DNA from: an uncultured Eubacterium sp.
GTDB lineage: Bacteria; Bacillota; Clostridia; Peptostreptococcales; Anaerovoracaceae
DNA length: 10,133 nt
Assembly (NCBI GenBank): GCA_946614405.1
Contig: CAMOGZ010000036.1
Span: 1 to 10,133 of the forward strand
Direction: 5' to 3'
Within the stretch, counting starts at the first letter, position 1, and each line of letters starts with the position of its first letter. Shown piece by piece: positions 4,247 to 10,133 of the stretch. The notes under the pieces were generated by a model. It saw only the letters and a program-made list of their open reading frames with translations, was not told where the DNA came from and did no database searches. Made by a program: the position numbers and the translations under genes.

Positions 4247-4801
4247 TTAAACTTCCAGGATCTCCTTGTCCTTTGCAGCGATCATGTCGTCGATCTCCTT
4301 GATCGCCTTGTCGATCTGCTTCTGGATGTCATCCAGATCGTTCTTCAGATCGTCCTCTGTGATCTCACCGGCCTTCTGTGACTTCTTCAGGTTGTCATTG
4401 GCCTCTCTTCTCAGGTTACGGATAGCGACCTTGGCATCCTCGCCCATCTTCTTGGTGGTCTTGGTGAGTTCTTTTCTTCTTTCCTCGGTCAGCTGCGGAA
4501 CCTCCAGACGGATGTTCTTTCCGTCATTATTCGGAGTGATTCCGATGTTGGCTGCGTTGATGGCTCTCTCCACATCACCGATGGACTTCGGATCGAACGG
4601 GGTGATCAGAAGGGTTCTCGGTTCCGGAACGGAAATATTGCTCAGATTCTTCAGCGGGGTCGGGGATCCATAATAATCCACCATGACCTTATCCAGAAGC
4701 GCCGGATTGGCTCTTCCTGCTCTGACAGTATTCAGATCTTCCTTCAGGACCTCTTTGGTTCTTGCGATTCTCTCTTCTAAATTCTTGCTTGAGCGACTCA
4801 T
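4247..4801 (-). CDS. frr: Ribosome recycling factor
   Basis: RRF acts with EF-G to split the post-termination ribosome and release mRNA and tRNA. The protein has 184 residues, one less than E. coli RRF. It contains the family hallmarks RAGRANPALLD (27-37), YYGSPTPL (43-50), PFDP (68-71), NNDGKNIRL (91-99) and IRNLRREAND (127-136). R132 is in the position of the conserved arginine needed for ribosome binding. The charged C-terminus is helical, as expected for the three-helix bundle. A strong GGGAGG ribosome binding site lies eight bases before the ATG and shares a base with the pyrH stop codon. Arginine codons are nearly all AGA or CGT (10 AGA, 2 CGT, 1 CGC of 13), unlike the CGG/CGC-rich neighbours, which fits high expression. 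Identity is certain. Confidence 0.98.
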   Translation of the reverse strand: MSRSSKNLEERIARTKEVLKEDLNTVRAGRANPALLDKVMVDYYGSPTPLKNLSNISVPEPRTLLITPFDPKSIGDVERAINAANIGITPNNDGKNIRLEVPQLTEERRKELTKTTKKMGEDAKVAIRNLRREANDNLKKSQKAGEITEDDLKNDLDDIQKQIDKAIKEIDDMIAAKDKEILEV

Positions 4802-4809
4802 TGTGTTTA

Positions 4810-4817
4810 CCTCCCTA
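4810..4817 (-). promoter_or_regulatory. Ribosome binding site of frr overlapping the pyrH stop codon
   Basis: In the transcript the bases read TAGGGAGG: the pyrH stop TAG (4817-4815) runs straight into the GGGAGG Shine-Dalgarno of frr (4815-4810), eight bases before the frr ATG. Ribosomes terminating on pyrH would sit on this site, which points to coupled or mutually affected translation of the two genes. Confidence 0.8.
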
Positions 4818-5519
4818 CTTGATCAACGTTCCCAGTCTCTCGCCGCATACGGCGCGTACCATACTATTCTCTTCTTTCAGTCCAAATACCTGGATCGTCA
4901 TATTGTTATCCATACAGATCGTTGCGGCAGTCAGATCCATGACCTGCAGGTTCCGGTCTATGACCTCCTTCATGGTCAGTTCATCATACTTCACCGCATC
5001 CGGGTTCTTGGCCGGATCATCGGAATAGACCGCATCCACGTTCTTGGCCAGAAGGATCACATCCGCCTGGATGTTCACCGCCCGCAGTGCAGCTGCAGTA
5101 TCCGTGGAGAAATGGGGCTCCCCGGTTCCTCCGGCAAAGATGACCACATCGCCGCGGCCCAGTTCCTTCATGGCTCTGCGCCAGATATAGGGCTCCGCCA
5201 CGCGGTGCATCTCGATGGATGACTGCACTCTTGCCGGTACTCCCACTGCGATCAGCGCATCCTGCAGTGCCAGTGCGTTCATAACCGTTGCCAGCATGCC
5301 GATGTAGTCCGCTGTCTCACGGTTCATATCCTCGCTGCTGCGTCCTCTCCAGAAGTTGCCGCCTCCGCAGACGATTCCGACCTCTACGCCCAGGTCACGG
5401 AGTTCCTTGATCTCCAGTGCCGTCTTCCGTGTCATCTCCGGGTTGATGCCTGTCTTCGCCTCTCCGGCCAGAGCCTCTCCACTGACCTTCAGCAGCACTC
5501 GCTTATATTTTGCTTCCAT
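4815..5519 (-). CDS. pyrH: UMP kinase
   Basis: PyrH phosphorylates UMP to UDP with ATP, feeding RNA, DNA and UDP-sugar synthesis. It is the bacterial hexameric enzyme of the amino acid kinase fold. The protein has 234 residues. LLKVSGEAL (9-17) is the N-terminal phosphate-binding loop, CGGGNFWRG (51-59) the glycine-rich UMP site, [18 protein letters not shown] (130-147) the conserved substrate loop, and [10 protein letters not shown] (160-169) the ATP-side motif. Many homologues have N, S or F where this protein has EPH, a small local variation. The ATG at 5519 has AAGGAG at 5527-5532, seven bases upstream, and lies just behind a good promoter, so it is the first gene of the downstream operon. 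The familiar rpsB-tsf pair, which precedes pyrH in many Bacillota, is absent here and trxB occupies that place. Confidence 0.97.
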
Positions 5520-8837: not shown

Positions 8838-8844
8838 CCTCCTA
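8838..8844 (-). promoter_or_regulatory. Ribosome binding site of the aminopeptidase gene overlapping the upstream stop codon
   Basis: The transcript reads TAGGAGG: the stop TAG of the GTPase-NYN fusion (8844-8842) is also the start of a full AGGAGG Shine-Dalgarno (8843-8838), six bases before the aminopeptidase ATG. This is the strongest ribosome binding site in the window. It suggests re-initiation or coupling between the two genes. Confidence 0.8.
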
Positions 8845-10133
8845 ATACTCTTGCTGTAATACGTCCCAGATGGCATCCTCCACCTGACGGATCTCGCCGA
8901 TGAACTCCCGGGACGAGGTGCGCAGGGCCCCGTGCCCCAGAATGATCAGCTGCTCCGCTCCGTCGGAGGTGATGACTCTGACATTATGTTTGCGGGCGAT
9001 CTCATGGGTCACCCGTTCAATATACATATCCGCCGTCTCCGCTTCTTTGGTGTAGACAACGTTGATATTCCTTATTTTCTCTTCCGATCCCACGCCGCCT
9101 TTCACCTTGTAGGCGTCGAACACCACGATGAGCTCCGCCCGGGTGAATCCCCTGTAATTGCAGAGGATGTCGATGAGCCTGTCCCTGGCCGCGCCGAAGT
9201 CTGTCTTCGCCAGATCGTTCAGTTCTTCCCAGGCATAGATGAGATTGTAGCCGTCCACCAGGATGAAATCCTTGCGGTTTGGATCGGCTTTGCTCTTCTT
9301 CTGCACTGCTTTGGGGGTGGGCCGGAAGTAGTCTTCTTTGGCCGGTGCTCTTCTGGCCCTTCCCGGCGCCGTCAGATCGTGACGCTTCACCGGTCCATAG
9401 GTCCGCTCGAAAATGGCCATCAGTTCCTTGTCTGAGGCCAGGGAACGTCCGTATTCTCTGGCACGGCGCTCCACCGACTTCTGGTCGGACAGATCCACCT
9501 TCTCCTTCAGAACCGATGGCAGATGCATGTATTCTTCCACCTGATCCCAGGGGATCACGTCTCCGCTTCCGTGACTGCAGAAGACAGAGTCCGGCGTATT
9601 CTCCACATCCCGCAGAGGATCGTATCCCATGCGTTCTGTCACCTCATCTCCGTTGTGGCAGAGGTCATATCCCGCCAGCATGCAGGAGATGCGCCCCCGG
9701 CCTTTGGTATAGCCTGCAAGCTCCCTTCCGTAGTCCCGGATCTCCGATGCCGGGGCCCGTCCCGTAAGGGTGGTCATCTCTCCTTCTGTCAGAGGATCCT
9801 CGAAGGTCCCGTGCATGCGCTGGATATCGTTCATGGCCCGGCCCAGATTCTCTGTGGGAAGCTCGATAGTATAGGAGAACCATGGTTCCAGCAGCACCAT
9901 ATCTGCTTTCATCAGGCCGTTTCGGACCGCCCGGTAGGTAGCCTGCCGGAAGTCTCCTCCCTCGGTATGCTTCTTATGGGCTTTCCCTGCCGCCAGGGTG
10001 ATCTTCATATCCGTAATGGGCGCCCCTGTCAGGGTCCCCCGGTGTTCCTTTTCCATCAGATGGGTCAGGATCAGCCTCTGCCAGTTGCGGTCCAGCTCAT
10101 CCTCATCACAGGTTGTGGTGAATGTCATGCCGG
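8842..10133 (-). CDS. TetM/EF-G-like ribosomal GTPase fused to a C-terminal Rae1/YacP NYN ribonuclease domain (5' part outside window)
   Basis: About 430 C-terminal residues are visible; numbering here starts at the Met at 10128, which is internal. Residues 1-75 resemble EF-G/TetM domain IV, with APITDMKI (36-43) at the place of the family's VTD-K motif and a tip loop GKAHKKHTEGGDF (48-60). Residues 77-155 resemble domain V: LLEPWFSYTIELP, RAMNDI, GRAP, GYTKGRG. A segment with CH (157-158) and FCSHGSG (183-189) follows, then a basic linker (245-286). Residues 287-428 form a complete NYN_YacP domain: ILVDGYN (289-295), VVFDAY (335-340), ETAD (364-367), TSDGAEQ (387-393) and GALRTSSRE (400-408). 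These match B. subtilis Rae1, an endonuclease that cuts mRNA in the ribosomal A site. The GTPase domain should lie beyond 10133. Automated annotation would probably call it a tetracycline resistance protein; the visible tip loop does not support that. Confidence 0.85.
   Translation of the reverse strand, partial: GMTFTTTCDEDELDRNWQRLILTHLMEKEHRGTLTGAPITDMKITLAAGKAHKKHTEGGDFRQATYRAVRNGLMKADMVLLEPWFSYTIELPTENLGRAMNDIQRMHGTFEDPLTEGEMTTLTGRAPASEIRDYGRELAGYTKGRGRISCMLAGYDLCHNGDEVTERMGYDPLRDVENTPDSVFCSHGSGDVIPWDQVEEYMHLPSVLKEKVDLSDQKSVERRAREYGRSLASDKELMAIFERTYGPVKRHDLTAPGRARRAPAKEDYFRPTPKAVQKKSKADPNRKDFILVDGYNLIYAWEELNDLAKTDFGAARDRLIDILCNYRGFTRAELIVVFDAYKVKGGVGSEEKIRNINVVYTKEAETADMYIERVTHEIARKHNVRVITSDGAEQLIILGHGALRTSSREFIGEIRQVEDAIWDVLQQEY

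Follow-up and report, generated by a model that had tools for sequence, protein, structure and literature searches.

In TetM and in EF-G, domain IV sits in the ribosomal A site. Rae1 has been placed in the same site, and the enzyme of Bacillus subtilis is an A-site mRNA endonuclease (PMC6613710, PMC12320835). Tet proteins that carry a NYN_YacP domain were described in ten Clostridiales species by Atkinson 2015 (PMC4342817), where an RNase activity or a role in resistance was suggested for them, and their architecture is the same as that of the fusion analyzed in this study. The architecture itself is known since 2015; added here are the assignment of the GTPase to a non-TetM subfamily, the mutual exclusion of the fused and separate forms, the loss of rae1 between rlmB and sigH and a test for a single fusion event. 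The available sections of Atkinson 2015 contain no link to Rae1, no loss from the operon, no unfused relatives and no extent of the distribution. In the open-access literature, a scope outside which the key Rae1 papers lie, we found neither an experimental study of the fusion nor a report of an operon replacement, and no phenotype described for a fused gene; the fusion or the exclusion may already have been mentioned in Condon 2018.

The window, which is the whole stretch of DNA analyzed here, corresponds to the entire 10133-base contig C36 of a 1.46-Mb draft genome. Its open frames and Pfam matches revealed the C-terminal half, 429 codons, of a GTPase-NYN_YacP fusion gene on the minus strand (8842..10131), the 5' end of which is cut at the contig end. 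EFG_IV, EFG_C and NYN_YacP were all matched above cut-off. The frame begins with the C-terminal part of EF-G domain IV (9904..10128; PF03764, 41.7 bits, profile positions 46-120 of 121, residues 2-76), which includes the tip loop III with the subfamily signature KHTEGGDFR, located by alignment (9946..9972). EF-G domain V follows (9655..9897; PF00679, EFG_C, 66.8 bits, residues 79-159), and then come a C-terminal extension of the type DSVFCSHG...PW....MH (9520..9654), which was defined by alignment and is confident in the model of the relative P0001, a tether defined by alignment (9265..9519) and the Rae1-type NYN_YacP nuclease domain (8845..9264; PF05991, 161.2 bits against a curated cut-off of 24.6, residues 290-423), all on the minus strand.

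The preliminary description of this DNA had proposed that both halves are joined in one chain, and this observation is confirmed. The GTPase domain expected upstream is present in the N-terminal half of the gene (motifs AHVDSGKT, DTPGH and NKMD), which was found at the end of C66, another contig of this genome. By eye, the last 28 residues of the C66 frame agree with the first 28 of the window frame at all 28 positions, and the contig ends overlap by 86 bases, 82 of them identical. The N-terminal half is 65% identical to a protein of Hornefia butyriciproducens (L002), and likewise the window half. In L002 the domains GTP_EFTU, D2, IV and V were found above cut-off (domain III reached 25.8 against 27) and are followed by NYN_YacP, the order that had been predicted. 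On one contig, Hornefia encodes MnmA, the fusion, M18, NudC, TrxB and PyrH, and the order in the window agrees: downstream of the fusion gene lie an M18 aminopeptidase, a NUDIX protein, a pyridine-nucleotide oxidoreductase, AA_kinase and RRF, followed by Prenyltransf, CTP_transf_1, DXP reductoisomerase, an M50 peptidase and GcpE. Gene symbols such as TrxB and PyrH for the window neighbours are our own labels. At least 590 public stretches encode a relative; among the best 80 of these, 74 loci contain the whole fusion in a single frame of 840-949 aa after start trimming, each with the P-loop AHVD[AS]GKT, and the other six reach a contig end. PF05991 was counted by eye on 119 of the best 120 of 7975 protein-database matches, the exception being frameshifted. 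P-loop and DTPGH are present in all of 97 fused proteins, with NK[MILV]D in 86 and NK[TN]D in 11. An assembly chimera is excluded by the single-frame public loci, the overlap of C66 and C36 and the Hornefia gene order. An apparent natural loss of NYN in P0022 turned out to be a frameshift. A conserved gene cluster was rejected as well, as the five neighbours of the window occur together at only one of the 80 loci (L002), judged from fetched flanks of which many were short.

Within the nuclease domain, the motifs VDGYN, VFDAY, ETAD and TSDG start at residues 292, 337, 365 and 388 of the window frame. A full NYN_YacP domain with all acidic motifs had been described; the motifs are all there, but the domain is incomplete, with profile positions 1-136 of 166 matched and the last ~30 unmatched. 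The acidic residues D293, D339, E365, D368 and D390 are those which we take to be catalytic; the first two had been numbered D292 and D338. In 215 aligned fused rows, the window included, D293 is kept in 214 and D339, D368 and D390 in all 215, and position 365 carries E in 197 rows and Q in the other 18. The divergent proteins G128f and G166f, which like the frameshifted P0022 stand outside this count, have VDGFN/VDSYN as first motif and retain the acidic residues that follow. A decayed nuclease is thereby ruled out. The B. subtilis YacP/Rae1 (5MQ8/5MQ9) has the same acidic motifs, with 132 residues alignable (E 1.2e-26), but is a separate protein, whereas the window domain is fused to a GTPase at a different locus. 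Separate Rae1 proteins of Clostridia have 160-216 aa and are encoded in an rlmB-rae1-sigH operon; the window domain is neither separate nor operonic.

The distribution of the two forms was determined in 136 Clostridia genomes, all at least 98% complete except that of the window (G000). The fused form was found in 48 and the separate form in 48, 40 are without a NYN_YacP match and none has both, compared with 17 genomes expected to have both if the forms were independent and kinship is ignored. All 48 fused genomes also match the GTPase query; three of them (G000, G098, G197) were scored as fused despite a cut or split frame, and most of the others were called from frame length and both matches and not by reading each gene. 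Neither part is needed everywhere, since both are missing from 37 of the 136 genomes, and the unfused GTPase occurs without any NYN in G121 and G218. Of 392 genomes in a wider set, 254 contain NYN and six have more than one match; four of the second matches lie below cut-off, G369 carries fragments and G304 both forms intact. The preliminary description had raised the question whether genomes with the fusion lack a stand-alone Rae1, and it is indeed near-absent there: none in the 48 fused Clostridia genomes, and both intact forms in one of the 254 NYN-bearing genomes of the wider set. A phylum sample of 149 genomes, which shares at least six with the class sample, contains 91 with NYN above cut-off; 10 were counted by eye as fused, 81 as separate and none as both. 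G555 of this sample has two separate Rae1 copies, and the long frames upstream of NYN in G546 and G468 are without GTPase motifs.

Among closer relatives, 44 of 61 genomes gave a NYN match. In the window's own family, 20 of the 23 NYN-bearing genomes show fused frames of 841-968 aa; three remain, namely G000, cut at the contig end, G003, whose 190-residue frame reaches a contig end, and G012, whose 538-residue frame is interrupted, with masked bases and a P-loop part upstream. Elsewhere in the order, outside this family, 20 of 21 frames are separate (172-197 aa) and only G037 is fused. Mutual exclusion of the forms is partly inherited within families. The families f31 and f27 have fused members, yet G105 (f31) and G123 (f27) possess a separate Rae1 without the GTPase, so that states also swap within families.

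The old rae1 locus was compared between both groups. In 19 genomes with operonic Rae1, rlmB, rae1 and sigH are adjacent in 16, and mrnC is nearby in 15; the exceptions are G102 with a more distant rlmB, G145 with no rlmB and G084 with no sigH in the stretch. Of 14 fused genomes searched for sigH, 12 gave a match (not G000 and G185), and 11 of these loci were opened (not G141). In nine of the 11, rlmB adjoins sigH, the matches being 15 to 582 bases apart, and the intact rae1 is gone; in G207 and G178, rlmB lies away from sigH. In a twelfth genome, G369, the very space between rlmB and sigH contains two fragments of rae1. One of the nine, G144, retains a 39-residue rae1 remnant in the gap (E 9e-8; none in 140 shuffled controls), and no remnant was detected in five of the seven longer gaps searched. 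As the separate rae1 is missing or decayed at its old site in fused genomes, the fusion seems to have taken over its job.

We consider it rather likely that the encoded protein is a Rae1 joined to its own translational GTPase, a member of the EF-G/ribosomal-protection superfamily that brings it to ribosomes, and that it cuts mRNA when these are paused. GTP-dependence, A-site docking and cleavage are properties that we infer for the fusion. The protein would do the job of Rae1, the cutting of mRNA on paused ribosomes. In its GTP-bound form it would go into the ribosomal factor site, where domain IV would probe for an empty or blocked A site and the tether would hold the nuclease on the ribosome. 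Because domain IV and Rae1 both belong in the A site and cannot share it, they would act in succession: domain IV would withdraw after GTP hydrolysis, the nuclease would then enter the A site and cleave the codon there, and the ribosome would be left fit for tmRNA rescue. Such an enzyme would be a ribosome-dependent nuclease tied to a GTPase of the A-site-acting kind. More tentatively, the fusion could represent a new class of housekeeping translation factor, a GTP-powered and self-contained quality-control nuclease whose domain IV probes the A site before the mRNA is cut, which replaced free Rae1 across much of the Clostridia; its unfused relative would be a GTPase partner of Rae1, so far uncharacterised. 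We hold this wider proposal as possible.

It is unlikely that the two halves act separately and were joined merely for co-expression or stability. The tether would leave room for such independence, as it is long (~80 residues; median 76 over 97 fused proteins, in one of which a misplaced pattern match gave a negative length) and partly disordered in the model of P0001 (874 aa, 68 sequences; mean pLDDT 84.5, pTM 0.64). In this model the GTPase, the extension and NYN are confident, a helix at 648-691 is of low confidence and 690-729 are disordered; the position of NYN relative to the GTPase is not fixed at this pTM. Separate genes for both parts in seven of the 136 genomes, and also in G400 and G572, would fit an independent action as well. 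However, the fusion is kept across many families, and fused NYN domains mostly lack, or have changed, the C-terminal end of separate Rae1. The pattern LE.{1,3}R was found in the last 25 residues of 30 of 39 separate rows versus 2 of 36 fused rows, and the window domain stops before this region. Measured from just before the first motif, in rows limited to about 178 residues, the fused domains have a median of 144 residues versus 169 in the separate ones; they are shorter or have a different end. In B. subtilis, a Rae1 mutant with R166P came up alongside loss-of-function mutants in a selection (PMC6613710), and the LE..R-type end therefore probably matters in separate Rae1. Its absence or alteration in most fused domains suggests an adaptation to the partner, and we infer that the GTPase has taken over the docking role of this end. 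In 89 of the 97 fused proteins, the 45 residues that precede NYN carry a net basic charge. The linker motif D.EL..IFE.TYG was dropped as evidence, since its strict pattern fits only 68 of the 97. The tether is missing from the aligned unfused relatives.

The fusion could also be an antibiotic ribosomal protection protein, which expels tetracycline or another A-site drug and uses the nuclease as an extra resistance activity, a reading suggested in Atkinson 2015; we regard this as quite unlikely. The five-domain plan is that of TetM, which is colinear with L002 over L002 residues 3-584, no NCBIfam model matches L002 better than tet_protect, and some of the protein-database matches listed bear tetracycline-resistance names, as had been supposed. 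The score of L002 against tet_protect is nevertheless 412.5 bits at a cut-off of 775 (92.8 bits for the window half alone), and that against the TetM/W model 253 bits at a cut-off of 1100; identity to Tet(M) is 28-29% among the matches listed. Loop III is as long as in TetM, but reads G.AH.KHT.GGDFR in the fusion subfamily (KHT.GGDFR in 95 of 97 fused proteins and in 120 of 120 among the database matches listed) compared with YYSPVSTPADFR in TetM and TetS. The TetM loop III triple mutant S508A P509A V510A is reported to stay active (PMC4750697), so that the loop letters alone do not exclude drug protection. TetM, Tet(S) and Otr(A) have no nuclease and a different C-terminal part; the extension DSVFC.HG.G..V.W....MH, which replaces it, is common to the window protein and the aligned unfused relatives and is missing from the TetM, TetS and OtrA rows. 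The TetM-like function first proposed for the GTPase is therefore not supported by the profile scores, the domain IV tip and the extension. In the surveys, the gene occurs as a single copy per genome across many families. A mobile resistance gene is ruled out by the database comparison and a survey of plasmid records: among 1308 matching records, only two cover at least 80% of the query in one place, one of them being a 518-kb replicon. A replacement of rae1 would also not be expected from a resistance gene.

The 50 Foldseek matches listed for the modelled P0001 are EF-G/EF-2 class factors by title or chain, none of them to the NYN part. The score of L002 against EF-G (TIGR00484) is 280.3 bits at a cut-off of 659.4, and the window's genome encodes a separate 642-aa frame, EF-G-like by our own label. 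As judged from the sequences, the GTPase is a distinct non-TetM subfamily of the EF-G/ribosomal-protection superfamily with fused and unfused members, and the fusion is probably not a tetracycline-resistance determinant. Part of the clostridial genes named 'tetracycline resistance' would then probably encode a translation quality-control enzyme, and counts of resistance genes could be inflated. In a phage collection, two unannotated faecal 'Bacteriophage sp.' records (MT835563.1, MT835514.1) match 98-100% of the fusion length; these matches are probably bacterial DNA and not phage genes. Finally, an RNase for rRNA or tRNA maturation, brought to ribosomal particles by the GTPase, is improbable: PMC4342817 cites a proposal of such a role for NYN_YacP domains, and the operon partner YacO/RlmB is a homologue of a 23S rRNA methyltransferase (PMC6613710), but the characterised Rae1 cuts A-site mRNA (PMC6613710, PMC12320835) and a NYN_YacP match is missing in 40 of the 136 Clostridia genomes.

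A strong unfused GTPase match was detected in nine of the 136 genomes, in seven together with a separate Rae1 and in G121 and G218 without any NYN. Seven of the nine GTPases were read and those of G114 and G172 were called by frame length, the G172 frame having internal stops; weaker matches of 76-84 bits were left out of this count, namely those in G151 and G173, which have a separate Rae1, and in G268, which has no NYN. The unfused proteins of 620-724 aa share loop III and the extension with some variation. That of Ligilactobacillus salivarius (WP_069469564.1) is 46.6% identical over residues 2-631 and has the loop NVHTVGGDFR and the extension HGAG..VDW....MH, after which it stops, with no tether and no NYN. 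The unfused GTPase is a candidate partner of Rae1.

The origin of the fusion was addressed by trees. In a quick GTPase tree of 34 fused and 11 unfused rows, rooted with TetM/TetS/OtrA and an EF-G-like row, G121, an eight-row unfused group and G218 branch before a 99% group, which contains every fused row and, on a long branch, the unfused protein of L. salivarius; an artefact or a loss of NYN may account for the placement of this protein. A first NYN tree of 75 rows, which lacked the divergent fused G128f and G166f, grouped 36 fused domains at 99% with a single separate Rae1 (G400). In the wider tree, with 48 fused and 39 separate domains among its 87 rows, two changes of state are required, and 'one group' of fused domains was withdrawn as evidence; identical rows and L106 and L110, missed by the pattern, are absent from the NYN trees. 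A single clade of all fused rows is not rejected on the 87 rows (p-AU 0.317), so the alignments would allow a single fusion event without demonstrating it. The odd row of the wider tree is best explained by G400, whose Rae1 (L221, G400:C1, 3055-3549) lies outside the rlmB operon and has fused NYN domains as nearest rows, and whose GTPase is unfused. G400 represents either a state near the origin of the fusion or a fission product.

Several further loci were observed. An unfused member adjoins rpsN on the 280-kb L. salivarius plasmid pLS_1 (L118, 4971-6905); its database name is TetM/TetW/TetO/TetS family, its G1 motif is ANVDAGKT, and it is probably a misnamed translation factor. G154:C1 carries two unfused GTPase copies (L140, L141), with one separate Rae1 in the genome. 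Weak NYN_YacP-like matches of 21 bits, below cut-off, occur in 163-165 aa frames of one genus (G165:C1:2323953-2324090, G214:C1:2636501-2636638, G241:C20:134518-134655). G304 combines an intact fusion and an intact operonic Rae1 (L143, G304:C2:3222000-3231000, 4748-5270 on the minus strand, and L133) and offers a natural test of split roles.
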